Source of the DNA: Trebouxia sp. TZW2008
Lineage: Eukaryota; Chlorophyta; Trebouxiophyceae; Trebouxiales; Trebouxiaceae
Assembly: GCA_002118135.1 (NCBI GenBank)
Contig: BDIU01000186.1
Span: forward strand, 288,466-352,465
Direction: 5' to 3'
Length of the DNA: 64,000 nt
The stretch's first letter is position 1. Each line of letters opens with the position of its first letter. The notes under the pieces are model-generated. The model was not told where the DNA came from, searched no databases, and was given only the letters and a program-made list of their open reading frames with translations. Position numbers and translations under genes: made by a program. Below, one piece after another: positions 23,949 through 49,149 of the stretch.

Positions 23949-26900
23949 CTATTTTAGCTTTCCTTGTTGCTTGAGGCCGTCTCTGAAGGCAGCCAGCACC
24001 AGTTCGACCTTTTCAGGCTTTGCATTGTAACCCATCAAACCTACCCTCCAAACCTTGCCGGCTGTGCCGCCTAGACCACCTGAGATTTCTAGGCTGTACT
24101 TGTCCATCGCATTCTTGACCACAGCACTCCAGTCCACGCCATCTGGGACCTACAGCCATGCCGTGCAGTGTTGACATGAGATGTATGTGATGCAGTTGCA
24201 GTGTGTCTTGACCTTGAGCAATGTATAAGAAGCTGCATTGATGCAGATCTGTGTCTTGTCCATGCCATTTCTGAACATAGCACTCCAGTCGACACCATCA
24301 GGAACCTGCAGCCATGCCGTGCTGTGTCGACATGACATATGTGTGATGCATTTGCAGTGTGTTTTGACTTTGAGCAATGCATAAGGAGCTGCATTCACGC
24401 AGATCTGTGTCTTGTCCTCTGCATTCTTGACCACAGCATTTCAGTCCACGCCGTTGGGTACCTGGATGCATGCTATGCAGTGTCAACACGGCAGGCGCTG
24501 AGTACATTTGCAGTGTGTGTTGAACTTGAGCAACGCCCAGGAAGTTGCAGACATGTAGATTTGTGTCTTGACAGTCTCAGCATGAGACTGAACCTAGGCC
24601 CTCAAGCATCATGTGTGATGCTCCACTTTGATCTGAGTAGCATTGCAGTTATCCCTCACAACACAGACATGGCATGATAGAGTTTATACACCAATATGGG
24701 GCATTACATTCAGATGCAAAACACATGTGATGGTGTTAACATCTGATCATGTGGCGTTGCTTATGGCTGCAAGACACACTGTGAAAATGTTGACATCTGC
24801 AGTGTGGCATCACAAACAGCTACATACATACTGTGATGGTGCTGACTGTGATGAAGCGCTCATTGTCATTCTGCACAAAAGACTTGAGGTCCATGGACTT
24901 GAGGTCGTCTCACAGCAGATGGTGCGTATTCTTTGAGCAGCATCACAGTCACAACTTGCTGTGGTAAGCTGAGGGACGGACCCTGATGGTGTTGACTGTG
25001 ATGAGGCGCTCATCATCATTCTGTACAAATGACTTGAGGCCCATGGACTTGAAGCCGTCCCACAGCAGGTGGAGCATGTTCTTTGAGCAGCATCACAGTC
25101 CTGGCTCGCGATGCAACTATGCCAACAAATGCAAGGCATTGCATGCAGCTGAGAGACTTACTGTGATGGTATTGACTGTGCTGAGGCGCTCATCATCGTG
25201 CTGCAGGAAGAACTTGATCACATTGGCTTGAAACCCTCCCACAGCAGGTGGTGCATATGCGACAGCTTGCAATGCAATCATGCCAACATATGCAACTTTG
25301 TATGCAGCTGAGAGACGTACTGTGATGGTGTTGACGGTGATGAGGCGCTCATCATCGTTCTGTACAAAGGACTTGAGGCCCATGGACTTGAGGCCGTCCC
25401 ACAGCAGGTGGTGCATGTTCTCATGCCTCTCCCACTGCTCCTTCAATCCCTCCTCTGAGGAGATGGCCAAAGCTTCCCGCATGCCGTACCTGCCATAAAC
25501 ACATTGTAAACAGCATAGACATCTGACAATAACCAATGGGATGCATTACAGAGCCGCAGGTATACGCTTTGGACTTCACTGCGTATGACCACGGGCGACC
25601 CACTTTGGCCTTTTGCAATGCAGAAAGATGGTTGTACCTTGGTGCTTTACATCAGCGAGCAACAGGCATTCATTGCTTCAGAATGTCATAAGGACAATTA
25701 GCTCACAAGGCGACGTCTCTGCATTATTGGTCAACACAGCCAAGACCATGCGCAAGTGAAGCGCCTCGCCCTGCATCAGAAACGTTGGCTCAGTACATGA
25801 GGCAAGCTGAAGAAAACAGACTCAGGTCATCCACAACTAGCACCTGGACTGCAACCTGCAATCTGTTGTGAAAATCATGATGGATGTTGCTATTAGCATG
25901 ATCATCACTGTCACCATTGTTTTTGTCATGATGCTTATGCTGCTGAAGGGCATTGGTACGATGAACTTACAGTTGGTTGTTACCATTGCCAGTGTCTATT
26001 CAGTAATCAGGCCAGAGTGATCAGGCCAGAGAGGCGGGAGACTGACCATGTGCTGACCATGCCAGTGTGGTGGTACCAGCGCTTGCCAAAGAGGCCCCAG
26101 TAGTCTCCTACTAGGTTCAGGTCCAGGTTGTATGTCGCCACTTTGGTCTTGCGGTTCTGAATCTTCTCCAGAGTGCGCTGGTTCAAAAACAGAGGTGCAG
26201 CACCTGCACCAGGCATGGCATCGCTTCGACACAGGAGGGCGCTGGCTTAAATACAGTGGCGCAGCAGTTGCAATCCAAGTCATGTTGATGCTACAGAGTG
26301 CCCTGATGGTGAGGACACAGGTCCTACATGTTGCACGCTTTCAGTTAGGGCTTCTGTCACAGCACACAGGCAAGCTGTCAGGCTGCAGCGCTCTTTGAAC
26401 TGAGGTAAAAGCAACAAGGCACAAGGTTTGAAGCTGAAGTGTTGACCTGGTGGCGCACTGAGGCACTTCTGTGAGCCCGAGTAGGCAATGTCAATGCCCC
26501 AGGCATCAGCGAAGAAGGGCACGCCGCCCAGAGAGCACACTGTGTCCACAATCAGCAAGGTGCCATTCTTCTGACACAGCTCACCAAGACCTTCTAGGTT
26601 CTGGTAGACTCCTGTGCTGCTCTCACCCTGCACCGCCAACGCAAGGTTGTTGCAGTACTGTTTGCAGTACTTGCATGAGACTCAAGACATCTGGCCGCTC
26701 ATGTTCAAAACTCCAAGCGGGATTTCAGCTGAGCGCTATGCTTGCAAACATTCAAACGGTATGCTCTTGATATGCTGGGGCAACTTGAATGAGGAACAAA
26801 GTGAATGGTCGTAAACGCTCTAATCATTGCTCAATTTGACAGATATGTAACACTGTCATCAAGAGAACTTGCAGCTTGAACACCTTGACTTTCTGTCATG

Positions 26901-28439
26901 GCTTTGCCTGCATCTTGCAAATTGAACTTTGCAGCAAGTGTCTACCCTGCCAGTCCCAATTCAACAGCAACACTGGACACATGAGTGCATCAACAAAGGG
27001 TACAAACAACTTGTGATGTCTTGCAAGCAGACTGCATACTGTGATAGCAAAGCATGGACATAGCAATGTGCATTGATGCACTGAACAACCGGCACAGATG
27101 GCAGGCTGCATACTGTGACAACAAAGCATGGACGCAGCTGTGCACAGTCATGCACTGAATACCTGGCACAGAAATAGGGCAGCTGGTTTGTTCTTCTCAA
27201 TGGCTGCCTTGAGCTCTTTGTATGAGAAGCTTTTGCCTGGTGCTTGCTTCAGCTCAATCACATCACCTAAAGACAAACAGCAAATTGATGCAGACCCCTG
27301 TTGTGTGCGCATGGGAACTTGATGGTCGACTTCAGAGATTTGCAATGCATATGTCAATGTCATGCCTAAGCATGCAGGATTTGCTGGACAGTTCTGCTGC
27401 TCCATAGCTCTGACTTCATGTCATATCCCATGAGCAGCAGAACTGTCCAGCAAGCATCCAGGTGTCATAAGCAGGCACTGGCACTATGTGCTGCATTTAT
27501 CACATTTTCTGTAAGCAAGATGCAAGCATGTATCTAAGCATGTCAGAGTGCATTTGCAGCATCAGCATTGGAAGCATCTCAAAGTCACATGGCATGTCAT
27601 TGTGGCGCTGACACATAGTTGCATGTTTCGGACTTGGGGCGCGCCCACAATGCCAATGCTACCAATGCATGGTGGTCTGACATGCTTAGATGATGCAACA
27701 TCCAAGCATAAAGTGCTGTGCATACCGCCATATCGTTCAGCCAAATCTGCCACTCGCATGCCCCAAATCCCATTGTTCCCCACAACAATCTTCTCTCCAG
27801 GCTCGATACAGTTGGCTATACATGCCTCCATGCCAGCATGGCCTGTGCCGCTGATGAGCAATGTGTTGCCCAAGTCTGTCTGAAACACATACTTCAGGCC
27901 CTCTTGAATCTCATCCATGATTTTGAAGAAAGGGGGGTGCATGTGACCCAGCATGGGAAGTGACTGGGCTGCCAGAACACGCGGGTAAGCATTTGCTGGT
28001 CCTGGGCCCATCAGCAACCGTGATGGTACCTGAAACACAGGCCATAGCGATTCAGCCAGACAATGCAGCTTGGTTGCTTATGGCATGCCATCTAGTTGCC
28101 TAGTTGGGCTGTCATGACGACGTTGCTGCGCGGACTTCTTCAGAAGGTGAAACTTGATGCAGAAGCCCTCTGTAGGAATGTACCAAACGCGAAGGGCTCA
28201 GACCCTGTCTGCCGCTGGCTAGACAAGACGTAGTCTAGGCATGTTGCAGCTCGCAAAGCTTTGCAGTATAGCAGCGTCACCTGCAAAACGCCCACAGGAC
28301 CCTTGTGGTTGTCAGAGACCTCAGGTAGGCTGTTGTCTATGCCATGGGCGGGTGCGGTTGCCGCAGCACCGGCGAAAGATCGCTCCTGTGCTCGGGCAAG
28401 CCCAGACAGCACTCGCCGCCAAGCGCTGGGTCGCATCAT
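23949..28439 (-). CDS. AGT: Alanine-glyoxylate aminotransferase, mitochondrial type
   Basis: A PLP enzyme that converts glyoxylate plus alanine to glycine plus pyruvate. Seven exons join in phase: 28439-28281, 28029-27726, 27266-27163, 26627-26447, 26203-26047, 25489-25321 and 24149-23949 (424 residues). The first 53 residues begin [20 protein letters not shown], an arginine-rich amphipathic mitochondrial presequence. The enzyme proper starts with [15 protein letters not shown]. Further hallmarks are [20 protein letters not shown]-type [12 protein letters not shown], the PLP-binding Lys243 in [29 protein letters not shown] and [19 protein letters not shown]. The C-terminus, QQGKLK, is not a peroxisomal signal. 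It resembles human AGXT more than plant serine-glyoxylate transaminase, which is encoded separately 10 kb away. Introns 5 and 6 contain several partial copies of exons 6 and 7. Confidence 0.96.
24105..24475 (-). repeat. Three tandem partial copies of AGT exon 7 5' edge
   Basis: The acceptor side and first codons of exon 7 ([16 protein letters not shown]) recur about every 145-150 bases near 24110-24150, 24250-24300 and 24405-24465. The copies keep recognisable PDGVDWS sequence. Only the first is followed by the rest of the domain. Confidence 0.85.
24830..25425 (-). repeat. Four tandem copies of AGT exon 6 3' half with its 5' splice site
   Basis: Units begin near 24838, 24987, 25157 and 25326 (spacings 149, 170, 169). 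Each encodes a version of [18 protein letters not shown] followed by a donor-like GT. The 25326 unit belongs to the spliced exon; the other three lie in intron 6. Coding similarity is high, for example [18 protein letters not shown] against [23 protein letters not shown] readings. Confidence 0.88.
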
Positions 28440-28521
28440 GACTGCAGCTCTTTGCAGCCACTCAGATCAGTAATTCGCCGCGGTCGCTGCCAAAAAGAAC
28501 AGCCGGACCGGCTCTGGAACG

Positions 28522-29475
28522 TCAACGCGAACGGATTTGGCTGTGGTCAGCGCTGATCATGTCGTTGGCCGTCAACGCTCTCAACTGGCTTTTACTCAGC
28601 AAGGAAGACTCAGAGCAGAGTCGTGAGTCCTGCAGGCACAAAAGCCCAGAATACTTTGACAGGCTTAGGTTGCAGCGCCAGCGCATGGCATGCTTGGCTT
28701 TCTTTGCTGCAGCAGCCAGAGTTTCTGCTCCATATGCCATGTTGCATGGAACAGAAACCGCAGGTATCTGTACTCCCCAACTCGGTCCACCACTCTGTCT
28801 TGAAAGGCAAATGGAGCACAATCAGATCGTCTAGCCTCAAACGCCACAGCTTTGGTCTTACTAAGGTTGACTGCCAGCTGCCTTTGCACATCTGCAAATG
28901 GTTGTGCCTATGCATCAAGCACTCTAGACTTGCATCACAAGAGACCACTGTGCTTCAGCTTTTGCACTGCTATCCAAAACCCGTCTTCTTCCTCATGCTC
29001 CCTCACCGGAATGTGGCACAAGCCTGAAGCCGCATCTGCTTTCTGGACTGTGCCTTTGTCCAATGCTCTGTGCTCAATGACCACATGCTGTATCCTCCTG
29101 CCCTCACAGACACTGTGTGGTAATCAGAGCTGAAAGGTCAACGCCGCATGGTGCTCCTGTACAGCTAACATATCACCGTTGGTTTGAGTGTCAATCATTA
29201 GAGTCTACACCCCGCTGTAGGGAGCCAGGTGTGGCGCATCAAGCTACTTGGCTTGAAAGCACAGGTGAATGTGTCTGGCGCCCACCGGCAGCTGATCAGA
29301 GTTTGCTTCCAAAAAGAGAGCAATGTCCCCCTGATGAAAGGCTGAACCAAACAAAAGAAATTGTTTGCTTCAAATGATACCGTAACCTGGCAGTCAAACA
29401 GAAAGTGTGGATCACTCTCAACAGCTTGCATGGCACAATGATAGCACATGCGTGATTTCCTAGGGGGTTTGGAAA
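28522..29475 (-). mobile_element. Non-LTR retrotransposon (LINE) fragments
   Basis: Minus-strand fragments read LAVNLSKTKAVAFEARRSD and VVDRVGEYRYLRFLFHAT, which are the conserved downstream part of a LINE reverse transcriptase (NxxKTK and YLGxxF motifs), with frameshifts. A second fragment (29449-29198) has CYHCAMQAVESDPHFLFDC, resembling the zinc-knuckle tail of such elements. The tail lies upstream of the polymerase piece, so at least two broken insertions are present. No intact frame remains. Confidence 0.7.
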
Positions 29476-32400
29476 CTAGTCATCTGTCAGTCTCAATTCT
29501 GAGGACAGGTGCTCCTGGTTGACAATTGACAAGAGCAATCACAGGGCTTGATTGTGACAATGGACTCAGATATCCTAGCCAGTTGATCAGGGCTTGAACA
29601 CGTGAGTCAACGTAACAGCCAGCCTGTGGAGGAGTGGATGTTTGGCAGACTGAAATGGGCCAGGCGTCTGGCAAGATGTCAACAGCAGACGACACAGAAA
29701 AAGTGCCCTCAGTCAATATGCCTTGGAAGCGGTGGTCATCGAACTGAGTGAACACTTTTGAAACCAGCCTGTCCTGACTACACTGACATGTGTACAAGCC
29801 TTTTTGACGCATCATACAGCCAAAGTTGTACCAAAAAGAGCGCAGCAAACTGTTGGGGCCATGTGCGCGTATGCTGCTCCGATCCTCAGGGTCAGAAGCA
29901 AGCACAGCTTGAAGCCTGCCACTGCAAATGTGCAGGTCACCTGATGTGATGTTGGAGCCAGCAGCTGCACCCAAATGTGCTGACGCTTGACGTGTGGAAC
30001 CAGATAGTCAGTGCTGGTCAGCAATATGGATGCATTTACAGTCAATACACACATTGGCAGTCAGAGCCTGACATGATAGTCATGCCGTCACTGTACGTTG
30101 AAATGCAAGAGAGCTCTGTGTATTTGAGCCGTTCACATCCTAGTCATACAGGCACTCAGGCACCTGAAACAGACGGTGTTGGGGCCGCCGACAGCCCAAG
30201 GTGTCGCTGCTGCGCTCAAGTTGAATACATATGCCTTGGATCACTGCCAGCCAGTCATGCTGAGCACATTGCTGTATATGACAGTGGCTGATGCAGCATC
30301 ACAAACAGGCAAAAGGTGAAAACATTGCAAACCTGCCAAAAGCCTCAGTCCTGCTGCAAACCCAGAGGAACCAGCCAATGCTGCCATGCACACAAACATC
30401 TGCATGCACTTTGCTGCTTGTTCTGCTGTCACTGTGTGCATCCTTCATAGTGAACAGGAAAGTTGCAGCTGTGGATTCTCCAGCTGGACACCAATGTCCA
30501 CACCACCCCTATGCAACTCAGGGGATGCAGAGGCATGCAGTCCAAGAGCGGCAGGGAGGGCCAGTACGCGATGCACAGTCCTGTCTTCGGCAATTTGATG
30601 CTCAAACAACGCACTACTGCTGCTTGTGCTTTCGCGTTAAGCTGGCTTGCATGCACAAGTGCCAAAAGCAAGTGCCTGGCAGCCACTGCTGTCTAGTCAC
30701 ATGTCTGCGTCACATGCCTGACTCATCGATTGTGCAGAACTTGGGGATTTCTGAAATGTGGGGATTGCCGAAGCACGCCTACTTGAAGCCCTCGCACTCG
30801 CAAATTGACCAACCGACCACGACCCGCTCGCTGTTCATGAAAGCTCGGCATCTGCTTTCTACGTAATCTGTGACACAAGGAGTAGCTGCCATCTTTTGTT
30901 GTTGCGGTCGAGAGCTCAGATATCGGGACCCCGCCTTGGTACTGCTGAGTGCGTGAGGCCACTGCGAGGGCTTCTGCCCTTGACTGGCCCGGCTCAGTAA
31001 GGCCCTGAGTAGCCACACCAGGCAAGCTTTAGCGGGCCAGCGCCGGTCTGAGCTTGACACCTTTCTGCCATGCCTCTTGCTCTGCCCTCTTGTGACGTTT
31101 CAGCCTCTGCTACTAGCAAAGACAATGCACATGCAACCCTCTTGTGCTTTGAGCTGTCTGGCTGTGGGGTAGAGGAGAAACCAGGTAAGCCTATGCAGGT
31201 CAGCTTGGAGCCAACTATGTCTTGTCTGAGATGCGCTATGGCTATGCTCTCCTCTGCCAACAGTAGCACAACAATGTGCTGTTCCTGTGTTTTCTGCGGA
31301 CAATTTTTGAGAAGGAACAGAGTGCGCCTTGCGCAAGCCCAGAGACTGTCAAGGTGTGTGGACACCCTGTGTTGCCTGCACATGCTGTGATGCACATTTT
31401 GTGGTAGATCTGCCATTGAGTGGCCTGCTGACGCTATCCTGCAAGCAGGCGCTGAGCCTTGATACTGCTGTTTTGCAGGCTTGCTATGCCAACGAGGAGG
31501 ACATCGACGTCGCGCCATCCTCCAAAACAACTAGTCAGTCTGTGTGGTATCCATCTGAGAACTGCTGTTGAGTTGCTTGCCTGGTGCAGTCCTCGTGACG
31601 TCAAGTCTGGTGTTGCAGGTGGCTCAAACATAGCTGATCCATTGGCGGCCAGGCCAAATCCTTTTGCATGACAGGTCAGCTTTTCAATTACCGCTTTTTG
31701 CGCTAAACAATCATGTCCAGCATACACTTGATCCCATGTGTGTTGTGTACAAGAGAGGCGGCGTATGACACTGTTGAAACTAAACTCAAGCAGACAAAGG
31801 CGACATCTTCAGCATGGTCTATTCAGCAATGGTCTGTTTGTGTTTTGATTTGTTGCTGTGTGTCTTTCATTGAATGCTGAATGCATGCAGTAGATTTGAC
31901 ATTCAGCTCAATTGCATCAGGCACAGCAGACTGTTGATATCTGTTTGTGTACAATGTTGTGCGCTTGCTTTGCAGTTCGGGTTGCTGCACAACTTACATC
32001 ATTGGCATGGGTGTTTTGGTCTGTGTGGACAGGGCAAGCTGTGAAGGTCTCAAGGCCAAATAGCTAAACTGCATCGCGTCTGCTGATACCATCAGCTGCA
32101 TTCAAGGTATGTCTGGTTTTGCATTTCCTGTGAGTGATACTGCAATGCTTGCTGCAATTCACATGGCCAGTGTCCATGCGAAGCTGTGTTCTGCTTGACA
32201 AGATCAAGCCAGGCTTCACATGTGCTTGTGCGCTTGCAGGTGATAGCGGCATTTTCAGTCATAGAGCAGCACAAAGCCTTCATGACAATTCTGTAAATCG
32301 GGTGCTCAACAGCGTTTACCACCTGGAGGCATGCTGCTGAAAGCCAGGCATGGAGGTTAATGCGCTGCGTTGATATCAGGCGTCAAGCAACAGATGGTCT

Positions 32401-36200: not shown

Positions 36201-37474
36201 GCATGCATTGACCATGTGTTGGCTTCAGTGACTCATGGTTAGCATGAAAGCACATCGGCTTGCAGTTGCTACTCATGAGCTGCCACTGTTGTCGTTGTCA
36301 AGGCACCTACAAGGACTGGTGGTTAGTCCCTGCTGCGGCCATTGTCACAGCATATGCATGCATTGACTGCTTATCAGCCCCTGCTGTGACCTCTGTCAAT
36401 ACACCTGTATGCAACGACCATTTCTCAGCCCCTGCTGTGGCCTTTAGCATAGCATATGCATGCGTTGACTCCTCAACAGCTGTTGCTGCAGTTTCTGTCA
36501 AAAAGCCTAACATGCGTTCAGTACTTGAGTTGCTGCACTGAGCTGCTGTGCAACACAAGATGCCAATGGCAGCAAGTCAGACACCCATGCAGGCCAGGAA
36601 TGAGTCACCTGGCGTGTTGCCGACAGCAATGCCATGTTTGGTGGCGTCTGGTACTTTCACATTGTTGTAGCCAACTGCATAATTGCTGTACACAGATCCC
36701 CCAGCCTTGGACAGCGCCTCAAACAGCGTGCTGTCCCATTGCTGCAGACAGCAAAAGAGTATCAGGTGCATGGAACACAAGCTACCCAGATACCTATGCG
36801 CTCTGAGATGCGCACAGCTCCTGGCATCAACTGGTGGACATCTGGCATTTCACCATGAAAGCAACACGCTCCTGAGGCCAAGGCTCATGCAAATTTGTCT
36901 GCATGACTATAGAAATGTGCCGGACAAACTGCTGCTGTGCTTCAATACAAGCTCTGGGTATCACACCTCTGTGAGTTGACCCAACACACCATGTGTTTCT
37001 CCAGCTGCAATAAGCTTTTTGATGATGTCTTGGCTGAGAATTGTGTCTGAGTGTTTGCAGACGTCCACTTGACATCCTGCCGAGAGCAGAGTCTGCAGCC
37101 ATCTGTCTCCTGGCAAGTCCTTTGTCACTACAACCCGGAACTTTCTGTCAGTGGACGGTGCATGTATCTGCAGGCACAATTGCATAAGTTCAGCTCGGAC
37201 AGCCCATGTGCGCGGGCCAAAAGGTGCATTGACATCTCCATTGAGCATGTGAAAAGTTGCAGTTTTGCGTTGCTCAGGCATTAATGAACAATCGCATTGC
37301 CTTGCGACGTAGGACTATGCTCACCGCTACGGGAATGCCGTCGATCTTGTCCTGCTTTGGCTCACTGGCAAATGCGCGCTGCTGCATACAACATATACGC
37401 GCAGCAGACTGTGCGAGAGCGCAGCGCTGCTGCGAAAGCTCTGCTAATGAGCTTCCGAGCCTGTGCAGAGCCAT
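33282..37474 (-). CDS. HPR1: Hydroxypyruvate reductase, NAD(P)H-dependent (HPR1 type)
   Basis: Reduces hydroxypyruvate to D-glycerate in photorespiration. Eight exons join in phase: 37474-37325, 37167-36967, 36741-36609, 36198-35912, 35201-35124, 34614-34451, 33961-33844 and 33452-33282 (433 residues). It aligns along its length with plant HPR1: VVVTKDLPGDRW, NYAVGYNNVKV, GNTPGVLTETTAELAHS, the dinucleotide fold GIVGAGRIG (214-222), catalytic Arg318 in NASRGPVIDE, Glu347 in DVFEDEPNMKPGL, His365 in VPHIASASFW, and the C-terminal APSIVNAK. The N-terminus MALHRLGSSLAELSQQRCAL is a mitochondrial-type presequence, and the C-terminus PQYSK is not a peroxisomal signal, unlike land-plant HPR1. The gene is head-to-head with SGT. 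Introns next to exon 4 contain copies of both exon edges. Confidence 0.97.
35790..36510 (-). repeat. Partial copies of both edges of HPR1 exon 4
   Basis: The 3' end of exon 4 (FDPYPNKFLEDYVKQY) is repeated 116 bases downstream at about 35870-35797, reading FDPYPNRFLEDYVKQY with its donor. Upstream, three degraded copies of the exon's acceptor and first codons (GVLTETTA) occur near 36384, 36435 and 36480, reading for example GVLTEVTAGA. The functional exon therefore lies between two small duplications. Confidence 0.85.
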
Positions 37475-37771
37475 CTTGGCTGTCTCGGCTTTATCTAGCA
37501 AGATGAACGAAAGCTACGTAAAGCTTCGCTTTCGACACGGAGTGCCAATCCGTCGTGATCAGAGCTTTTGCGCACCTCTGCTTGCCGAGAGCAAAGCGGC
37601 AATTCTGCGCAGCAGCGGGACGAAATAGCGACACCAGGCCTGAACTGACGCTTCCTTTACAAACTGTCGCAGTCAACTCGTTGACCAATCTTGTTACGAG
37701 TCCACCCTCTGATCTGATCGAACGCCCTCTTTTGCCGCACAGCGCACGGCACTGAGATCGCAAGTCAAACG
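37475..37771. promoter_or_regulatory. Shared divergent promoter of HPR1 and SGT
   Basis: The 297 bases between the two start codons must drive both genes. They contain a perfect inverted repeat, GTCAAC-TC-GTTGAC, at 37672-37685, immediately followed by CAAT (giving a CCAAT box). The half-site TTGACC also matches the WRKY W-box core. No TATA box is visible. The compact shared spacer implies co-regulation of two enzymes acting in consecutive steps. Confidence 0.7.
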
Positions 37772-40700
37772 ATGAACAAGTGGCAGACTGCCCTTCGGCG
37801 CTTGCCGCGCGGGCTTGCGCAAGCTGAGACTTTTGCACAGGTCGAGATCCCATGCAGCGTTCTGGCGGTGACTCAGCTAGTTTCTGACAAGCATGTAACG
37901 ACTTTCTGCATGCTCAGGAAGCGACGTGTACAAGCTGTCGAGGCTTCGCTAGCGGTGCTCCCTATAGCTATGACCCTCCCGGAAGAAACCACCTGTTTGT
38001 GCCGGGTGAGACAGTTGTGATGCCTCGATAGCCTGCTAGGCACATCATCAATGTGTATCTTTGTTTCATTTGGCTTGAGCGAAAGGCGCACAGCATGATT
38101 GCTTCAGAAGGCAGTTCTACTGTGACACATCTTCTGGCCATACAGGTTGCAGACAGTCTCTGCAAGCTGCTACTATTGCTGCTGGTCTTGCTGCATCGTT
38201 TGGCTGTGCTTGCAGGGCCTGTCAACATCCATTCCTCAGTACAGCAGGCAATGGACAGACCAGCACAGAACCACCGTGACCCTTGGTTCAACCCATTCTT
38301 CAGCAGCATTTTGGAGGACTCAAAAATGCTGTTTGGCACAACAAATGCACAAACTTTCATCTACCCTGGAACTGGCACTGGTGGCTGGGAAGTTGGTCTG
38401 ACCAACACATTGTCACCAGGGGACAAGATTTTGACATTCAGATACGGGCAGTTCAGTCTGTTGTGGGTTGACATGATGGAGCGGCTAGGGCTTGATGTAC
38501 AAGTGATTGATGAGAGATGGGGCAATGGAGTAGATGAGAGTAGACTAGAGAAGGTCTGACGCAGTCTCTGCGTATCAGAGTCAAAGGCAAAGAGCTACAA
38601 CCCATGCCAGACACCAGCAAGCTGACATGTCAGTGATGAACACTGGACTGACTGCACTCACATATTGTGCAACAGCACATTGCAGGTTACAAATGTCAAT
38701 ATGAGTCTTGCACACCTCAAGACCAAATCAAGCTCTTTGCAAGGCATTCTCTGCTCTCTGCTTTTCATAGTAGGTGTCCTGATACCTTTGACTGCTTGCA
38801 GGCACTGAAAGCAGACACGGACAAGAAGATCAAAGCTGTTGCAGTAGTGCACAACGAAACGGCGACAGGCGTCACTAGTGACCTACCCAAAATCAGGGAA
38901 ACTATGGATGCCTGCAACCACCCTGCTTTGTTTCTGGTAGACGGTGTCTCCTCCATTGGTGCCCTAGACTTCCAGATGGACAAATGGAAGGTGGACGTTG
39001 CAGTCACAGGCTCTCAGAAGGCTCTGTCCCTGCCAACAGGCCTTGCAGTTGTTGCAGTCTCAGACAAGGTGAAGACTGCATTCAATGTATGTTGTTGTTA
39101 TGCTTTTGGGCAGAGTAAGTGCTGCACTCTTTCAGCCCCAAGTATAGGCATCTGTTCAGAATCTTGCTGGTATTGCATTCTCAGACAAGGTTGACGCTGC
39201 ATTGCTTTAATTAGAGGTGTAGCCAGCCCCTTGCTTTTGTTGCAGTCTCAGACAAGGTACGCACTTGTTACTTCAGCCCACCATCAAAGGCAGCTTTCAG
39301 AAGCTTGCTTTTGTTGCATTGTCAGTCAAGGCAGATGCTGCATTGCTTCAGCTCGAATTTACATTTAGGCTTGCGTTGCAACATTGCTATTGTGCTGTGC
39401 TGATTGCCAACAGGCCTTGCTATTGTTGCCATCTCAGACAATTGCACCCTGCATCGCTTCAGTGTCAAGATAGAGTCAGCCTTGGCCTGCAACATTGCTG
39501 TTTTTCTGGCTCTGCTCGTGCTGCACAGCTGTGCAAATGAAAATATGCTTTAGCCCTGCATCGCTGACTGCACAGTTGGGGCTTGGTGAGTTTCTACAGC
39601 ACAGCAGGCAGTGACAGCAGGGCTGGTCAAGGTTTGCACGACCAGTACAGGCAACACTGCATGGTGCTGCATGCTGCTTGCTGCGTTCGTCAGTCAGGCC
39701 CATGCCACTCCATTTTACTTTTATTGTATCCTGTAATCCCATGGTCACATTCATCTTACATTTACAGGCTCTTGAAGCGCGCAAGACAGCCAAGCTAAAG
39801 AGGGTGTACTATGACTTGGAAGACATGATCAAGACAAACAAGGATGGCCAGACGCCCTACACACCTGTGCTGCCGCTGCTGTATGGCATGCAAGCCTCCA
39901 TGAACCTCATGAAGGCAGAAGGCTTTGAGAATGTCATAAAAAGGCATAACAGGTCTGAGCCCTGTGCTTACTTTACACAACCCCATTCATTGTCTCTTAC
40001 ATGATATGCGTACAATTGCACGAGAAAACACGCCCGAGCTGTGCAATAGACACAGACAAACGAGGTCAAGGCAAACGGAATAGTATACCACACAACCCCC
40101 CTTCCCCCACCCTGCTCCTCGAATCTTTCAGAATCGCAGTGTTGTGGTGTGCTGCAGCTTCCTTAGGATGTGCGGATATGAAAGTCTTCCTGTTTGCAAT
40201 GCTTTAAGCTTCAGAGCTTCACACGCGTTCTGCAAGGGTGTCAGCAACTTATTTTACAAAAACTGCTGACAATAAGTGCTGATGACAAGTACCATCGACA
40301 CTCGACATGACAGGGCTTGCAACAGAAAAGTCTCCCGGCTCAGCCAATGCATGAGTGACATTACATGCACCGACGCAAATCAATGCACACCATCAATCTT
40401 GGAAACCCCCAGTGGCTGTTTGATCCAGCTACTTTGCACACAGCTGTGTCTGCTTTGCTCGGTTCAGATGCTTGGGTGTATGCAGACTTGGGGAGGGTGC
40501 CAGGAGGGCCACCAAGGGGTGGGGCCTGGAGCTGCTGTGCAAGAACCCAAGGTGGAGGAGTGATGCCCTCACTGTCATTGAGACCCCCAAGGTAAGCAAC
40601 TTTGCCCAGACTGTCAAGTCCTGGTGGGGTTGACAGTGCTCGTTGTTTTGTTGGCTGCGCTGCTGGTCTTCTGATGACAAAGAATCTGCGGCCTCACACA

Positions 40701-41253
40701 GAGGCTGGTGATTGGCTAACGATGGCATTGCTGCCTGCTCAAGCTGCAGCTGCATGCTAGGATGAACAAGCAGCTAAGCTTCACATGCTATTGACGGCCA
40801 GCATGTGATCCACTTTGCATGTGATGCAGTTTGTATGCGAACTAGTCCATGTCATATGCATCTGTTTGCATGGTATCTGTTGACCTCGCGAGCTTGCTGA
40901 CAGAGGTGCTGAATGTAATGAAGTTGGGCACTGAGGAATCAGTCATGCTGAAATGCCGACAAACACTGCAGGGCACGGACTCAAACCTCGTGGTCAAGAA
41001 TGCCTATGCCAAGTACAACTTGTCACTTGGAGTAGGCCTGACAAAGGTTGCTGGCAAGGTCTTCAGAATTGGCCATCTGGGCAACATGGATGAGGTTATG
41101 TTGCTGGGCGCTCTTGCTGGAACTGAGATGGCTTTGATTGATGCTGGCATCAAGATTGAGCCTGGCAGTGGAGTGAAAGAGGCTGTCAAGTACTTCCAAG
41201 AAACAAGTTCGGTCATCCCAACCCGCCAAGCCCCTCCCAAGATGCAAATGTAA
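37772..41253 (+). CDS. SGT: Serine-glyoxylate aminotransferase
   Basis: A PLP enzyme that moves the amino group of serine to glyoxylate, giving hydroxypyruvate and glycine. Seven exons join in phase: 37772-37840, 37918-38005, 38216-38553, 38802-39068, 39768-39952, 40486-40591 and 40972-41253 (444 residues). It matches plant SGT/AGT1: GRNHLFVPGPVNIHSSV, PGTGTGGWEVGLTNTLSPGD, YGQFSLLWVDMM, VHNETATGVTSDLP, LVDGVSSIGALDFQMDKW, PLP Lys238 in TGSQKALSLPTG, TPVLPLLYGMQA, NLSLGVGLTKVAGKVFRIG. The leader MNKWQTALRRLPRGLAQAE is mitochondrial in character, and the end PPKMQM lacks the peroxisomal tripeptide found in land-plant orthologues. Its product is the substrate of HPR1, encoded head-to-head. Intron 4 carries repeated copies of the end of exon 4. 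Confidence 0.97.
39035..39470 (+). repeat. Repeated copies of SGT exon 4 3' edge in the following intron
   Basis: The exon end and donor (encoding VVAVSDK, CTCAGACAAGGT) recur with drift near 39180, 39245, 39325 and 39433. Each copy is accompanied by a variant of the downstream GCATTGCTTCAG sequence. Unit length is 60-110 bases. The functional splice uses the first copy at 39068. Confidence 0.75.
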
Positions 41254-41861: not shown

Positions 41862-44800
41862 ATGGGGCGCCGTGCTGCTGTGCGCGCTCTAGACCGTATC
41901 GTCAGGCAGCAAGCAGGCGCACGAAAAGCAAGCACAGCTGGTGCTAGAGTCTTTCCCAACAGCTCAACAGGCTTGTTCGGTGCTCAGCCGACAGCTGTTA
42001 CCCCTCCAGCAAGTGCATGGTCAGGCTCGAAGGCTAGGAGGTCTGCTTTGGCGCAGCCTGTGGAGGAGACTGCTATTATTCCAGACACTGTGGTGGACGC
42101 GTACGGCGCGGTTTCTGTGGTCTCAGAAGAGGATGCAGACTTTCAGGAGGGCATGTACAGAAACATCGACGGTCGACGCTACGAGGACGGCAGATACGCA
42201 GCGTTCATTAACGAGATATCAGCTTTCATACCCAAGTCTCGTCAGTTCACCGATCCCGTCAGGACTTTTGCATACGGCACAGACGCCAGTTTCTACCGTC
42301 TAAACCCCAAGCTTGTCGTCAAAGTGCACAATGAGGCAGAGCTTCAGCGGATTTTGCCAATCGCGCGGCGGATGGAAGTGCCGGTCACCTTCAGAGCAGC
42401 TGGAACTTCACTATCTGGCCAAGCGATCACCGACTCTGTTCTGCTCAAGCTCAGCCACACCGGCAAAAACTTCAGAAATTATGAAATTCACGTAAGTTCT
42501 GCTGTCATGTGCCTAGCTTTGCTGTGTAAATTGGTCTGTGAGCATCTGTCTGACCTACCTGTCTAGGTAGTGCTTTGCTACTGCACCCAAGAATTCTAGA
42601 TAGATTAAGGGGTTGCTTCTGGCAGCTGTGGCTTTCTTCTCCAAGTGTCATATTGCGTGATGCGCAGCTAGGCCACTGTGCCAGCGCGCAACCTGTAGCT
42701 TGATCTACCAGGCTTGCACTCAGTGCCCAAGCTCAAATGCTGGCATCCTTGCAGGGTGATGGCAGTCAGATCACTGTTGAGCCTGGTCTTATCGGTGGCG
42801 AGGTTAACAGGATCCTTGCCCGCCACAAGGCTAAGCACAACCACCCCATACAGTACAAGATTGGACCAGACCCGTCATCCATTGACAGCTGCATGGTTGG
42901 CGGCATGGTGTCCAACAACTCTTCAGGCATGTGCTGTGGTGTATCCCAGAACACATACCACACCCTCAAGGACATGAGGGTGGTGTTTCTGGATGGCACT
43001 GTCCTGGATACCAAGGACCCCAAGAGCAGAGAGGCATTCCTTGAGGTACACTTGATCTGCTGTGCTCCTGGCCCAGCACGTGTAGTGCTGATTCTCGTGC
43101 CTTGCTGCCTCATCATGTCTCTGCGGTGCTTGGGTGTGCTGTGCTATGCTGTTGCGCAAGTTTGAGCTTCATAGCCCAGGGAGGCCTGTGTTGTTCTTGC
43201 TTGTTTGTGCAATCGCTTGTTGTACAATCATTCTAAGCTGTGCACTATGAGCTATGTCTTGCCATCATTAGTGCTTGACCATTGCTGAATTGCCTCCTGT
43301 GTCTCATTTTACATAGTCTGCTTTTGTTTACATAGTCTGCTTTTGTCTGCAGAGTCACAAAGACTTGGTGGCTGGTGTCCTAGACTTGGCCAGAAGAGTA
43401 CAAGCAGACAAGCAGCTGACAGCCTTGATCCGGCGCAAGTTTGCCATCAAGTGCACCACAGGCTACAGTCTGAACGCTCTGGTGGACTTCTCCATTGATG
43501 ACCCAATTGAGATCATCAAGCGACTTATGATTGGCAGTGAGGGCACATTCGGCTTTGTGTCCCAGGCCACATACAACTGTGTGCCTGAGTGGCCCCACAA
43601 GGTATATTGCCCAGCACAATTGTGTCGCAGTCTGTCTTGGCTTCATGTGCGTGCATTGGCAGAGCCAGCAGTGCCACCTTGTAGTGCTGTGTCAGCTTGT
43701 CATCTGAGCAGTCCTGACCTGGGTAGTTACAAGCAGTCAACTAGTTGAAAGAAGGATTGCATATGCACCCACTAGCACTGACAATTCTACTTTATGGCTC
43801 TGTTTTGGCAGCAGCTGCAGCAATCACACCATGTGCCTGCTGTGGAACTCTGAATTTCATTGTAGTGTGGATACTCCTACGTCCAACAGTGGCTTGATAC
43901 TGTTGTCAGCAATGACAGCGTTGCGTCTTTTTTGGAATTTGAGCTTGTTTGTGTTCTGTGCAGGCCTCAGCCTTCATGATGTTCCCAGACATGAACACAG
44001 CCTGTAGAGCAGCAGGAGTCCTCAGGACTGACACAGCAGTGGATGCTGTGGAGGTGTTTGACAGGGCAGCCTTGAGGGAGTGTGAGGCTGATGAGGCACT
44101 GACCAAGCTGGTGGTGGACATCAAGGGAGCAGACCCAGGCGCTGCTGCCCTGCTGATTGAGTGCAGAGGAGAGGACGCTGAGACCCTGCAGGTTCGTGCT
44201 GCTTACTGAACATTTCAGCACATGGCAATGGAGATTTGCACAGTCAGGGCCCTGCTGGACCCTGCAAAGCTGTTTCTCATAGCTTGTGACTGCAGCCTTC
44301 GCAAGTGTTGTTCACATGAAAGCTGCTGGTACAGCAGGACTAAGGTCTGACTCTAGCAGACCATCTATGAATTTGGCAGTGGTTTTGTGGTCCACCTTTC
44401 TGTACCCTGTTCCTCAGTTGAGGAACAAAGCTGCTCTTTGATCTGAGGGATTGCGCAGAAAGGTGCAATACAGTTCTTGATAGCAGTGTGCCTGCTGACA
44501 TCTGCTGCAGTTTGTGTCTGTCAGAATGTATGCTGCAGAAGTCGTCTGCATTGGGTGATGTTCAGGCTGGTCAACACCTTGGCCTTGTATAAAGGACGCT
44601 GCATAGCAGCTTTTGAGCTTCATACAGCAGGGGTTGGCCATTCTCAACGCTGCACTGCAGCTAATTGAGCTTTAGACAGCAGGGTCTGGCCATTGTCAAC
44701 AACCAGGAAGCAGCTCTGTCTGAGTTTTTTCTGTTCATCATAGGAACGTATTGATGAGGTCAAGGGAGCCATGTCACTTGCCAATGTGACATTTGGGGCA

Positions 44801-47800
44801 AAGCGATCAGACCCAAAGGACGTGGACACATATGATTTTAAGAAGGACCCCAAGGACTTCACTGTGTACTGGGATGTGCGCAAGGGTCTCATCCCCATTG
44901 TTGGTGGTGCACGTGAGACAGGTCAGCGTTTACTAGTGGTTGATCATGCATCCAGCCATGCATACTACGCCTGACACTTTCCCAGTTGCCTCTGAGCCAT
45001 TGTTGTCAGTATATTGTCAGTTGCATTAGCATCAACAGACCAAGCACGTAAATTTGCTTGCTGCCTCCATTTGTTCCCTCGTCTGGCATGCTGGATTGCT
45101 GATGCGACTCCAAAGTGTTACTGCAGGAACCAGTATGCTGATTGAGGATGTGGCCTGCCCGGTGGACAAGCTGGGTGACATGACCCAGGACTTGGTGGAC
45201 ATGTTCCAGAAGTGGGGCTACAAGGATGCCTCCTGCTTTGGCCATGCACTGGAAGGCAACCTTCACCTTGTCTTCTCACAGGTCAGACAAGTGTCTGCTG
45301 CTTGACCTCGTTTGACAGTCTATGTGTGCCATGGCATGTAAACTGCATGCTTTGAATGCTGCTGCACCTTTCCTTCAGCTTTTCTGCAGCTTGCATGTAG
45401 GATAAGCATGACATGGTGCCAAGTGTTCATCATTCATTCAGCTGCTGCAGCTTTGTTTCTGGTCAGTGGTGGCATTTTGACTCCAACTGCACTACTGTAG
45501 CACTGAATTGATCCTTGTCGTCATTGCAGGGTTTCAGGAGCCCAGAGGAGGTGCAGCGCTTCAGTGACATGATGGAGGAGATGTGCTACATTGTTGCCAC
45601 CAAACACAGTGGCTCACTGAAGGGTGAGCATGGCACAGGCAGGAATGTAGCTCCATTTGTGGAGATGGAGTGGGGTACCAAGGCCTATGAGCTCATGTGG
45701 GAGCTCAAGCAGCTGTTTGACCCCACATACGTCCTGAACCCTGGTGTCGTCCTGAACAAGGTCAGCATGCTTTGACATTCAAGAAGTGCACCTCTGTCTG
45801 TTAGCATCCCAGCAGTCTTTCAGTGTCACATGAGTCATCAGCTTCCGCTCATGGCTTGTGCATGCAAAAACCCCAGCAAGGCGTCAGCTGATTGTGCATT
45901 GAATACACTTGCATCTGTAGCAAGCAAGACAGCTTTCAGCATGCACAGCTAATGCCACAAATCTTGATCTGTCCTATGTGCATGTCTTGTCTGCTGCCAA
46001 TGTGATGCTGTATTCTGCACATAAACATGTAAAGCAAGAAGCATTGCTGGGCACAAAGCAGTCTTGCAAGCAGGATTAGAGCTGCTCTTTCTGAAGGTGC
46101 AGCAAGCCCAACAGCCATAGCCAAACAAAGCTGTTGCAAGACTCACCCAGCTAATGCTGGCCTGTGTTATGCAGGATCCTGACCTGCATCTGAAGCACCT
46201 GAAGCCCTCACCTCCTGCCTCCTCCATTGTCAACCGCTGCATCGAGTGCGGCTTCTGTGAGAGCAACTGCCCATCACGCGACATCACCCTCACGCCTCGT
46301 CAGCGCATCACCACATACAGAGAGATCAGCAGACTCAGGGATTTGGATGACCGCACTGCAGCTCAGCAACAGAGGCTGAATGACTTTGAGCAGTCATATG
46401 ACTACCAGGGAGATGCCACATGTGCAGCTGATGGCATGTGCCAGCAGAAGTGCCCTGTCAAGATCAACACGGGGGAGCTGATCAAGCAGCTGAGGTCAGA
46501 TGAGCTGGAGGGCGGTGACCACCCTAGAGCCACAAAGGGTGCCATGGTGAGTCTCCCTTTCTTGTCTTGTCCTTGTCTGTTGGTCAGTGATACCAATAAC
46601 TTGATTTTGCAAGCAGACGTAACATGTGGCAGTCAAATGCAGCAGAAGCAAGCTTCCTTTCACTGACTGTCTAGATCTAGTTGATGGATTGTGCATTTCT
46701 CCACACCACTGAGGCCGTGAATGTGGTGAAGTAGTGGTCAACTGCATTGCCTGCCTGCATTGCCTGCATGCTGCGGATCTGTTAACTTATTGCATGCTTC
46801 TGCGTGTGCAGACTTTGGCCAACAACTTTGGCACCTTTGCTGCTGCCATGCCTCCTCTGCTGAACACAGTGGACCTGATCCACCGGGTGGTGGGCCCCAA
46901 GCCTCTGGAGTTCATCAGCAAAAACCTGAACAGGATGTCTGGCAACATCGTACCTGTGTGGAGCCCATCCATTCCAACTGTAAGTTTGCATCTGCCACCC
47001 TGTCATGTCAAGGCAATGCTTGCTGGGGCAGACACTGCCTAGTTTGCCATGGTCAACAGTTGCAATGCCCATGCTTGTCTTTGTTGCACGCTTGCTGTCA
47101 AATAATTACGCAGTGTAAGATTGCTATGTTCATCACATTGTTGCTGCTTGGACATTGGCGCCCACTTTGGGGCTGGTTCGTGCAAGTTCCCCTGATTGCA
47201 CGGCACCTATGCAGCCTATTGCATCGTCCTATTGCACATTGCTGTGCGACCCTGCAACACTGAATTCAGCGTGAACATCTGTCAATAACTGTTGCTTCTT
47301 GTAGGGTGCCTCCAAGCTGAACATGAGCCCCCGGGTGCCTGAGCAGCCCAAGAAGGGCCTGCCACGCCAGGTGGTGTACGCCCCAGCCTGCGTCACCCGT
47401 ATGATGGGCCCTGCCAGCAGTGACTCTGAGCAGGCCTCTGTCCATGAAAAGCTGCTGTCTTTGTTTGACAAGGCCGGATATGAAGTCATCTACCCAGAGG
47501 TCAGTTGCCTGTCATCTGCAAGCTGGTTGTGGTTCTATGTGCATGTTTGCAGCTTGATTGCAGATGTGCTTGTGCTGTCAGCAATTGCTACTCGAGCATC
47601 ATGTTGTCATGTTAGCAGCTCGCTACAGCCTTGGTTGAGCTGCCTTGTGAAGCAGCTTGCTGCTTGCTTTGCGTCTGCTGTGTTTGCTGCATGCACAGGA
47701 TTAGTGTCAATAGTCATTTCAACAGCATGCCTTCAAAGGCTGTAAGCCTCCCCACTTTGCATGCCATGCTAGTCATGATGTTTAGTCTATTCAACCCATT

Positions 47801-49149
47801 TCCATACCCTATCAAAGCAAATGTGCTGACTTTCATGACATCTTGTGCAGGGTTTGAGCAGCAGCTGCTGTGGCATGCTGTTCAACAGCAGAGGGTTCAA
47901 GGGTGCAGCCTCTCACAAGGGTCAGGAGCTGGAGCAGTCTCTTGTCAAGGCGTCACAGGGCGGCAAGATCCCCATTGTTATGGACACCTCCCCTTGCCTG
48001 GCTCAGATGAAGGGCGCCCTCACAGACCCCTGCCTCAAGTAAGCCAGCATCTGTGATGCCCTGATCTGCCTGTTGATTTGCCTTTAGCATGTGGAATGAC
48101 AGTCGCTGTACTCCTTCAAAGTTGATTTATTATCAGACTGCTGCTTGTGCCATGCAAGCCATCTTATGTTGTATGCTTGGACCTTTGTATGGCAGGCTGC
48201 TCTGCAAACATATCTGCCATGCAGATTATGCATCACAACATATAGCTTTAGTACCTGAGCAGTGCATTGCTGCATCAAAGCTTGCAGAAAAGCATGCACA
48301 TTATGCCTAGAGAGCATTCTTCTGTGCGCACCATTTGTATTACTGACTGCTCAAGCGACAACAAGAAGGCACTGTGCTGACTCTCACATGCGCACAGGTT
48401 CAACTTGTATGAGCCTGTGGAGTTCATCTCCCGTCACCTCATGGACAAGCTGGAGTGGAGCAAGGTCAGGGACAATGTGGCAATTCATGTGCCCTGCTCT
48501 TCCAAGAAGATGGGCATTGAGGCTGCCTTCAACGCAGTCGCCCAGAAGTGCTCACATCAGATCACCTCAACAGACGTACCGTGCTGTGGTGAGTGGCCCT
48601 GCACATGTTGCTGTTGTGCTGACGCCCATGTTGGTGACAAAGAAGGCATTGCCATTGAAATCCGCCTGACTGTCAGCTTGTTGCAAATGTCAGTCGCAAT
48701 ATCATCTTCAAGCAAACTTGCGTTTTGCTGTTGCCTTTGTCCAGCATGGCGGCAGAGATGCATGTCAATGCGACGTATTTGCTTTCAGCATGGGCGTCTG
48801 TGACATTCTTACTGCCTGCTCTTGTATAGGACATGAAGTGTATTGACATGCAGACAGCCTGCACCGATGCTTACATCACACTGTGCATGAAGTGATTTGA
48901 CTGTTGAGCATCAGAAACTTACCAATCTTTTGCCACATTGCAGGTATGGCTGGAGACAGGGGCATGAGGTATCCAGAGTTGACTGGAGCTGCCTTGCAGC
49001 ACATCCAGACCAATGGATGCACTGATGGTTACTCGACATCCAGGACGTGTGAGATCAGTCTGTCCAACCACAGTGGCATCAACTTCAGAGGCCTTGTGTA
49101 TCTTGCTGATGAAGCAACAAAGCCTAAGCAGCAGCAAGCAGCGGCGTAA
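41862..49149 (+). CDS. GYD1: Glycolate dehydrogenase, fused flavin and iron-sulfur type
   Basis: Oxidises glycolate to glyoxylate in green-algal mitochondria, replacing the peroxisomal oxidase of land plants. Thirteen exons join in phase: 41862-42491, 42755-43045, 43353-43601, 43964-44191, 44744-44921, 45127-45281, 45530-45760, 46175-46546, 46812-46979, 47305-47499, 47851-48038, 48398-48588, 48944-49149 (1093 residues; as I recall, the Chlamydomonas protein is of nearly the same length). N-terminal part: FAD-binding type 4 fold with TFRAAGTSLSGQAI, CMVGGMVSNNSSGM and IGSEGTFGFVSQA, plus KGEHGTGRNVAPF. C-terminal part: two 4Fe-4S motifs, CIECGFCESNCP (Cys676-686) and CAADGMCQQKCP (from Cys737), then cysteine-rich CCG domains (PACVTRMMGP, SSSCCGMLFNSRG, VPCSSKKMG, VPCCGMAGD). 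It thus fuses the equivalents of bacterial GlcD and GlcF. The leader MGRRAAVRALDRIVRQQAG suits mitochondria. D-lactate is a possible second substrate. Confidence 0.96.

Follow-up and report, generated by a model that had tools for sequence, protein, structure and literature searches.

The window, that is the whole stretch of 64,000 nucleotides from Trebouxia sp. TZW2008 that was analysed, encodes four enzymes of photorespiration, namely AGT, HPR1, SGT and GYD1, as intact spliced models that all lie within positions 23949-49149 (Table 1). All introns of these models are of the GT-AG type and one stop closes each frame. The acceptor of SGT exon 6 was placed by alignment to relatives, and the SGT protein has the same length as its counterpart in Trebouxia sp. 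C0005, to which it is 90% identical. HPR1 and SGT are arranged head to head, and the short region between them may act as a shared promoter; the end of SGT is separated from the start of GYD1 by 608 bp. The window is free of N bases, and scans of its whole length for Rfam families (gathering threshold) and tRNAs returned no hits.

Table 1. Coordinates of genes and other features of the locus (positions within the window)
Feature	Position	Strand	Details
Mitochondrial carrier family (SLC25) gene	19797..23079	+	8 exons, 310 aa; three Mito_carr repeats; converges on AGT
AGT, alanine:glyoxylate aminotransferase, class V	28439..23949	-	7 exons, 424 aa, Arg-rich N terminus; Pfam Aminotran_5
Three 156-nt tandem units of the AGT last-exon region	24099..24566	-	True copy 24099-24254; two diverged copies in last intron, 85% and 72% to true copy
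Partial AGT exon 6, four copies in tandem	24817..25421	-	True copy 25306-25421; rest intronic
Second dispersed repeat fragment, AGT-HPR1 gap	28673-28882		DNA matches elsewhere in genome
Dispersed repeat fragment, AGT-HPR1 gap	29191..29808		DNA matches of 71-86% on many other contigs
HPR1, hydroxypyruvate reductase 1	37474..33282	-	8 exons, 433 aa, presequence-like N terminus; Pfam 2-Hacid_dh + 2-Hacid_dh_C
HPR1-SGT intergenic region	37475..37771		297 bp separating divergent start codons
SGT/SGA1, serine:glyoxylate aminotransferase	37772..41253	+	7 exons, 444 aa; exon 6 from 40486
GYD1, glycolate dehydrogenase	41862..49149	+	13 exons, 1093 aa; FAD_binding_4, FAD-oxidase_C and Fe-S domains

The gene names are borne out by Pfam and, for AGT, SGT and HPR1, also by a PDB sequence search. 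The top PDB matches of AGT are alanine:glyoxylate aminotransferases, whereas the nearest entry for SGT is a serine--glyoxylate aminotransferase (6pk1, which we take to be the Arabidopsis enzyme) with 435 bits as compared to 152 bits for the runner-up. Residue K238 of SGT, presumably the Schiff-base lysine within the SQKA motif, is invariant in 10/10 aligned rows. HPR1 is 77% identical to the protein of Trebouxia sp. C0010 and 82-83% identical to those of other relatives. The FAD domains, the C-terminal Fe-S region and a match of 68% identity over 95% to Chlamydomonas reinhardtii GYD1 (CHLRE_06g288700) point to an orthologue of the latter. The preliminary description had placed the four genes at this locus and on these strands with closed gene models; our models, Pfam and the PDB search agree with it. 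AGT and SGT both belong to class V but are only distantly related (30-41% identity in matched exons), which argues against a recent tandem duplication. Thus, three enzyme families (GYD1, HPR1 and SGT/AGT) are packed into 25 kb, that is, non-homologous genes of one pathway are adjacent.

Such packing is poorly explained by chance. If 10-20 pathway loci were placed at random, a stretch of 25.2 kb would hold four of them only ~4e-8 to 1e-6 times per genome. SGT has a single locus in the genome and HPR1 a single clear one plus two weak matches elsewhere, while a second AGT locus, a paralogue, is found on contig C127. Genes for a PGP-like protein (contig C101), GDC-P, GDC-T and SHMT all reside on other contigs. 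The cluster spans four enzymes rather than the whole pathway initially claimed, and the set lacks the PGP-like gene in addition to GDC and SHMT, which had been named as the only missing members.

The gap between AGT and HPR1 had been described as holding LINE debris and unassigned frames. Dispersed repeats, which may or may not be LINEs, are present (40 of 173 candidate matches were scored, one of the 40 being the query itself), and none of the 10 ORFs scanned, out of 41 of at least 60 aa, reached the Pfam cut-off. That a dispersed repeat stands between AGT and HPR1 was counted against membership of AGT in the cluster. Such a repeat could also host a false join, and a misassembly might then have brought together unrelated loci. 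However, the sequence is gapless and core pairs are also found linked in genome assemblies from other species, an argument that covers the core but not AGT or the carrier. We therefore regard a misassembly as very unlikely.

Gene order in relatives, the comparison proposed at the outset, was assessed for GYD1, SGT and HPR1, and core pairs are linked in other trebouxiophytes as well. In both Chlorella vulgaris (D9Q98_005775/005776) and Nannochloris (g09647/g09646), the tags of SGT and GYD1 directly follow one another, and HPR1 and GYD1 of Micractinium are two tags apart (ABPG77_007856/007858). With a common contig judged from the equal size of the contigs carrying each hit, and pairs among these three genes only, at least one gene pair shares a contig in 9 of 10 comparable trebouxiophytes as compared to 1 of 13 other green algae; four of those ten do so via megabase contigs alone. 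Apatococcus (5.8 Mb), Myrmecia (4.9 Mb) and C. sorokiniana (4.1 Mb) show linkage in this manner only. Auxenochlorella, in which two hits bear different source names, was counted as unshared, and Coccomyxa and Trebouxia were left out as their listed genes derive from differing species or strains. Exactly equal contig sizes of at least 10 kb occurred 8 (46 x 34 rows), 5 (46 x 41) and 4 times (34 x 41), whereas jittered sizes gave means of 0.004-0.008; this test used the rows whose longest contig was at least 10 kb (46, 34 and 41 out of 120 each). One further equality at 3,756 bp (P0041 and P0208) fell under the 10-kb limit and was not counted. In Apatococcus, Symbiochloris, Elliptochloris and Myrmecia, the two genes that share a contig have widely differing tag numbers. 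A contig of 170 kb holds both tags of the Elliptochloris pair, 005753 and 003164, so the numbering cannot track position there and the two genes are not necessarily close.

On the GYD1 tree, in which Auxenochlorella was left unlabelled, the distribution of linked (12 rows) and unlinked (9 rows) genes requires a single change, whereas shuffled labels required 7.1 on average and none of 500 shufflings was as low. Since the branch joining the linked rows has only 62% support and the SGT tree needs three changes (shuffled mean 10.3), linkage may have been gained twice or lost in some lineages. Linkage of the GYD1/SGT/HPR1 pairs is conserved beyond chance.

This conservation could reflect a neutral relic, i.e. 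one chance meeting of the genes followed by slow erosion of gene order in the Trebouxiophyceae without selection. All linked cases may go back to one event and would then not be independent, and HPR1 of Nannochloris and SGT of Myrmecia have left the group and lie on other contigs. A promoter motif was likewise not found: k-mers common to the regions upstream of HPR1/SGT, SGT-GYD1 and AGT were not above those in random segments of the window, and we dropped a shared motif as support for co-regulation. There were no 8-mers in all three regions (mean 0.99 in 300 random draws), 18 9-mers in at least two regions (mean 26.7) and 8 10-mers (mean 14.8; 300 random draws each). However, the genes kept together all belong to one pathway, and their linkage spans Chlorellales, Trebouxiales and the Elliptochloris clade, across which GYD1 of the 11 other linked rows is 66-75% identical to the protein in the window. 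Moreover, just 1.2-2.8% of chlorophyte genes reside in conserved neighbourhoods according to PMC7826186. A neutral relic is thus an improbable explanation.

The arrangement also recalls the serine-cycle operons of methylotrophs, whose genes are presumably sga-hprA. A D-2-hydroxyacid dehydrogenase match lies near 48 of 80 bacterial SGT loci, Methylobacterium included (HPR1 as tblastn query, E-value limit 1e-6, at most 4 kb of flanking sequence), and SGT and HPR might thus have been acquired as a pair by transfer of a bacterial operon. However, GYD1 has no match in any of the 80 loci, the bacterial SGTs are only 47-56% and the HPR matches ~28-39% identical (45 of 48 listed), and AGT, HPR1, SGT and GYD1 all contain introns. 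In addition, the 25 SGT rows of algal type group separately from 14 bacterial rows (of the 80 loci), albeit in a tree that was rooted on the latter and therefore tests nesting weakly. On the basis of the SGT tree, the low identities and the absence of GYD1, we consider such a transfer extremely unlikely, and the likeness looks convergent. A search for SGT relatives on viral contigs yielded three pattern matches, none of which was confirmed.

The preliminary description knew of no photorespiratory cluster. In PMC7826186, however, photorespiration is one of five earlier-reported functional gene clusters conserved in green algae (Foflonker et al. 2016, Picochlorum), and the Picochlorum cluster is mentioned again in PMC12198440. 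It concerns the same pathway in the same phylum and its clustering is conserved between species (Foflonker & Blaby-Haas 2020, PMC7826186); the two are likened here without regard to gene composition. The green-algal nitrate assimilation cluster likewise serves primary metabolism in chlorophytes and includes transporter genes, but belongs to another pathway, and its eight co-localised genes are reported to be jointly downregulated under two herbicides (PMC12198440). Chlamydomonas possesses orthologous GYD1, HPR1 and SGA1 genes, with GYD1 and HPR1 both on chromosome 6 (Cre06.g288700, Cre06.g295450). These two are far apart by tag, however, and the SGT orthologue sits on a different chromosome (PMC12174325), namely chromosome 1 (CHLRE_01g005150), so that there is no compact cluster.

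Thus, the clustering looks real and functional, yet it has a precedent. We consider it likely that the locus is a conserved metabolic gene cluster for the mitochondrial arm of green-algal photorespiration, whose core came together in a trebouxiophyte ancestor and was selectively kept. GYD1 would convert glycolate to glyoxylate, which AGT and SGT would turn into glycine; following conversion of glycine to serine by GDC and SHMT, both encoded elsewhere, SGT would yield hydroxypyruvate and HPR1 glycerate. A mitochondrial location is suggested by Chlamydomonas, in which HPR1 was localised there by imaging (PMC8264790) and to whose mitochondria GYD1 is assigned (PMC12174325, PMC7020209). The HPR1-SGT-GYD1 core most likely formed once, in the trebouxiophyte ancestor, and would then have been held by selection, probably for joint expression. 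The most likely gain is that joint expression of linked steps would prevent build-up of glyoxylate and hydroxypyruvate as CO2 drops. Transcripts of the Chlamydomonas orthologues GYD1, HPR1 and SGA1 are reported to increase upon transfer to low CO2, apparently under control of CIA5 (PMC11548211); photorespiratory proteins are described as accumulating at high CO2 and in cia5 too, and gyd1 mutants as growing like wild type (PMC12174325). AGT is a less certain member of the cluster, and the adjacent carrier is still less certain.

This mitochondrial carrier gene, absent from the preliminary description, lies just outside the range covered there and ends 869 bp from AGT. Its model closes, with one GC-AG intron (after exon 4) and GT-AG introns otherwise. 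It is the sole strong locus in the genome, other carriers matching at 24-43% over parts, and its PDB matches (11 sequences: ADP/ATP carriers, uncoupling proteins and others) give superfamily placement only. When aligned with UCP2, both proteins show RN and, further on, R at equivalent positions of repeats 2 and 3; by the contact-point scheme these positions might indicate a carboxylate-type carrier, a reading that was not counted as evidence. Tentatively, and with considerable doubt, the carrier may be a fifth member, a putative inner-membrane transporter of the photorespiratory arm (e.g. for glycolate/glycerate exchange), and the five genes one transport-plus-enzyme module. We know of no named transporter for this role in green algae; if the proposal holds, the carrier would be a candidate for a mitochondrial photorespiration transporter through guilt by association. 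It may resemble CCP1/CCP2 or BOU, which likewise belong to the mitochondrial carrier family. CCP1/2 are low-CO2 induced and mitochondrial and BOU is linked to photorespiration, with roles or substrates described as unsettled (PMC5102585, PMC11548211, PMC8146403); bicarbonate was proposed for CCP1/2 in a review (PMC10096703).

Taken together, our data add a lichen-photobiont lineage to the green algae with a photorespiration cluster, which had been reported before but, in the accessible literature, described in little detail. If the carrier belongs to the cluster, the transporter candidate that it provides would be of relevance for CO2-concentrating algae and for engineered bypasses that employ algal glycolate dehydrogenase. 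The data further indicate linkage of the core across the Trebouxiophyceae and delimit the cluster to enzymes of what is probably the mitochondrial arm.

The window extends to the end of its contig (G000:C178:288466-352465, of 352465 bp), G000 being the genome under study (68.5 Mb in 527 contigs). Models of its genes for alanine:glyoxylate aminotransferase (AGT), hydroxypyruvate reductase 1 (HPR1), serine:glyoxylate aminotransferase (SGT) and glycolate dehydrogenase (GYD1) were rebuilt from the sequence (see table); all introns are GT-AG and each frame is closed by a single stop. The names given to the four genes in the preliminary description agree with Pfam and, for AGT, SGT and HPR1, also with PDB sequence searches. 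The best match of SGT was serine:glyoxylate aminotransferase 6pk1 (435 bits; runner-up 152 bits), whereas AGT retrieved alanine:glyoxylate aminotransferases (1vjo, 2huf, 3kgw) and HPR1 glyoxylate/hydroxypyruvate reductases. SGT is 90% identical to its counterpart in Trebouxia sp. C0005, and GYD1 is 68% identical to C. reinhardtii CHLRE_06g288700, the locus called GYD1 in PMC12174325 (excerpt). With the exon 6 acceptor placed at 40486 by alignment to relatives, SGT has 444 aa; its tree and all SGT searches used a 450-aa form in which this exon begins with six surplus residues. Across the whole window CpG is strongly depleted (0.41 of expectation; TpA 0.49; CpA 1.65), a skew that would fit CpG methylation and decay.

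Features in the window and related loci on other contigs of the genome (C, contig)
Feature	Location	Strand	Remarks
ORF	17098-17589	-	chitin recognition domain barely above Pfam cut-off
RraA-like stretch	19052-19741	-	weak match, below cut-off; upstream of carrier
Mitochondrial carrier	19797-23079	+	intact, 310 aa; one GC-AG intron; three Mito_carr repeats
AGT	23949-28439	-	
Exon copies in AGT	24099-24566; 24817-25421		last intron; exon 6 and last-exon region, each as diverged tandem copies
Repeats, AGT-HPR1 gap	28673-28882; 29191-29808		matches scattered across many contigs
HPR1	33282-37474	-	
SGT	37772-41253	+	
GYD1	41862-49149	+	
Stop-free frame	53059-55251	+	731 codons, downstream of GYD1; zero Pfam matches
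Second AGT locus (L024)	C127:92500-100500		tandem partial exon copies
Second FAD-oxidase_C gene	C295:84204-87285		
Gap repeat, further copy	C295:84876-85126		inside FAD-oxidase_C gene span
GDC-P	C185		
SHMT	C172, C15, C314		
PGP-like gene	C101		exon-by-exon matches below family cut-off
GDC-T matches	C38, C114		

The genes are tightly packed. HPR1 and SGT are divergent with 297 bp between their start codons, GYD1 starts 608 bp past the SGT stop, and 4.8 kb separate AGT from HPR1. In the latter gap, where LINE debris had been described, two stretches match dispersed repeats, but the LINE label could not be confirmed; 10 of the 41 gap ORFs of at least 60 aa were scanned against Pfam, and none matched at cut-off. 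If 10-20 pathway loci were placed randomly in 68.5 Mb, four of them would be expected inside 25.2 kb 4e-8 to 1e-6 times. Chance therefore explains the cluster badly, even when we allow for hundreds of noticeable pathways.

Further pathway genes are dispersed. GDC-P, SHMT, GDC-T matches and a PGP-like gene lie on other contigs, and thus the cluster comprises four pathway enzymes rather than everything but GDC and SHMT, as had been claimed. SGT has one clear locus in the genome, as does HPR1, which has two additional weak matches elsewhere (33-35%). GYD1 cannot be called the sole gene of its kind, because a second FAD-oxidase_C gene is present on C295. A further AGT locus lies on C127 (52-80% in matched exons). 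The copies within the last AGT intron amount to repeated in-place exon duplication, and since the C127 locus also carries such partial copies, both AGT paralogues display exon-level duplication.

Linkage in other green algae was assessed by gene names and contigs of identical bp size, obtained from protein searches with GYD1, SGT and HPR1 (best 120 matches per search; longest contig of each match). Among the matches listed, there were 8 exact coincidences in size between contigs of at least 10 kb for the pair GYD1-SGT (46 x 34 rows), 5 for GYD1-HPR1 (46 x 41 rows) and 4 for SGT-HPR1 (34 x 41 rows), as compared to means of 0.004-0.008 when sizes were jittered by up to 10% (500 runs per pair). 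Judged from identical size, all three genes share one 323,881-bp contig, and GYD1 and SGT one of 13,245 bp. The preliminary description had proposed to compare gene order in other chlorophytes, and linked pairs indeed recur: among the matches listed, at least one pair shares a same-size contig in nine of ten named trebouxiophytes for which two or more of these genes were matched (Micractinium sp., C. vulgaris, Nannochloris, Apatococcus, Symbiochloris, Elliptochloris, Myrmecia, C. sorokiniana and M. conductrix), but in only one of 13 other green algae counted alike (C. reinhardtii, Volvox reticuliferus, Haematococcus, Edaphochlamys, C. eustigma, two Scenedesmus, Sanguina, Raphidocelis, Monoraphidium, Astrephomene, Bryopsis and Pedinophyceae sp.). 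Class membership (Trebouxiophyceae) was verified for Apatococcus, Symbiochloris, Elliptochloris, Micractinium, Nannochloris, Trebouxia and Myrmecia, and assumed for the remaining species counted. The non-sharing trebouxiophyte is Auxenochlorella, whose two matches carry different source names; the sharing species outside the class is C. reinhardtii, in which a single 9-Mb chromosome carries GYD1 and HPR1, and a different one SGT.

Provided that locus tags track chromosome order, GYD1 and SGT are neighbours on same-size contigs in Chlorella vulgaris (D9Q98_005775, D9Q98_005776) and in Nannochloris (g09647, g09646), a genus close to Picochlorum; Nannochloris HPR1 (g04604) lies on a different contig, and in Micractinium CCAP 211/92, GYD1 (ABPG77_007858) and HPR1 (ABPG77_007856) are two tags apart on a same-size contig. 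Of the ten species that share a contig, four (Apatococcus, Myrmecia, C. sorokiniana, C. reinhardtii) do so solely by megabase contigs. Those of C. vulgaris and Nannochloris reach megabase size too, yet their tags are adjacent. The same-contig pairs of Apatococcus, Symbiochloris, Elliptochloris and Myrmecia have tags thousands apart, which counts against closeness. However, the contigs of Elliptochloris (170 kb) and Symbiochloris (444 kb) are too small for such a gap, and thus these tags are probably not positional, the pairs indicating a common contig without implying adjacency.

In the GYD1 tree (29 rows, 8 unlabelled), linked (12) and unlinked rows (9, with C. reinhardtii scored unlinked) are separated by one change (shuffled mean 7.1; 0/500 as low), and in the SGT tree (39 rows) the linked label changes three times (shuffled mean 10.3; 0/500 as low); both trees are quick searches. 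We read this distribution as a single old assembly in Trebouxiophyceae with losses afterwards. Support at the branch of the label change in the GYD1 tree is only 62%, and it is possible that linkage was gained twice. Out of 584 confirmed loci, 80 bacterial SGT loci were kept, with flanks of up to 4 kb: 48, Methylobacterium among them, have a D-2-hydroxyacid dehydrogenase match, a pairing resembling HPR1-SGT, but none of the 80 has a GYD1 match. Algal SGT is separate from the 14 bacterial rows used in the tree. The bacterial and algal pairings look convergent.

The preliminary description knew of no described photorespiratory cluster, but one had been reported. Photorespiration (Foflonker et al. 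2016) is one of five earlier-reported functional clusters that, according to an excerpt of PMC7826186, were recovered as conserved in green algae; in that study, 11 of the 145 neighbourhoods found in C. reinhardtii show significant co-expression, among them four already described ones that the excerpt leaves unnamed. A Picochlorum genome with a photorespiration cluster is mentioned in PMC12198440 (excerpt). The SGT-GYD1 adjacency in Nannochloris suggests that the Picochlorum cluster and ours have an overlapping core. A literature search by title, with most subscription journals outside it, found no further title pointing to such a description. Hence, the present cluster is a further case of a known type, and the detail in Trebouxia sp. 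TZW2008 is possibly unreported.

A mitochondrial carrier gene, outside the originally described range of 23949-49149, is convergent with AGT, their stops lying 869 bp apart. Elsewhere in the genome there is no strong match to it, other carriers reaching 24-43% over partial alignments. From its position in this one genome we would guess that it is a fifth module member. According to excerpts, it is unsettled what CCP1/2 do and which substrates BOU carries (PMC11548211, PMC5102585, PMC8146403), which makes this idea worth testing; for CCP1/2, bicarbonate transport is proposed in one review (PMC10096703, excerpt). The RraA-like stretch is possibly a divergent neighbour of the carrier.

According to the gene models, each of the four cluster proteins has an N-terminal extension that contains Arg, and a terminal SKL is absent from all of them. 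Chlamydomonas HPR1 (PMC8264790, excerpt) and GYD1 (PMC7020209 and PMC12174325, excerpts) are mitochondrial. Taken together, these features suggest that the cluster encodes the mitochondrial arm of the pathway. Following the established roles of the families, glycolate would enter mitochondria and be converted to glyoxylate by GYD1, AGT and SGT would form glycine, GDC/SHMT would yield serine, and SGT and HPR1 would convert the latter via hydroxypyruvate to glycerate. In Chlamydomonas, GYD1, HPR1, SGA1 and other transcripts increase upon shift to low CO2, apparently under control of CIA5 (PMC11548211, excerpt), and blocks past glycolate oxidation are termed deleterious (PMC12174325, excerpt). 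However, according to the same excerpt, photorespiratory proteins were also found in cia5 and under high CO2, and gyd1 mutants showed wild-type growth. A shared promoter motif was looked for among the cluster genes and none was found; the divergent HPR1-SGT promoter may be common to both. We infer that selection for joint expression, through which the linkage would have been retained, is the simplest reason why these genes stayed together.
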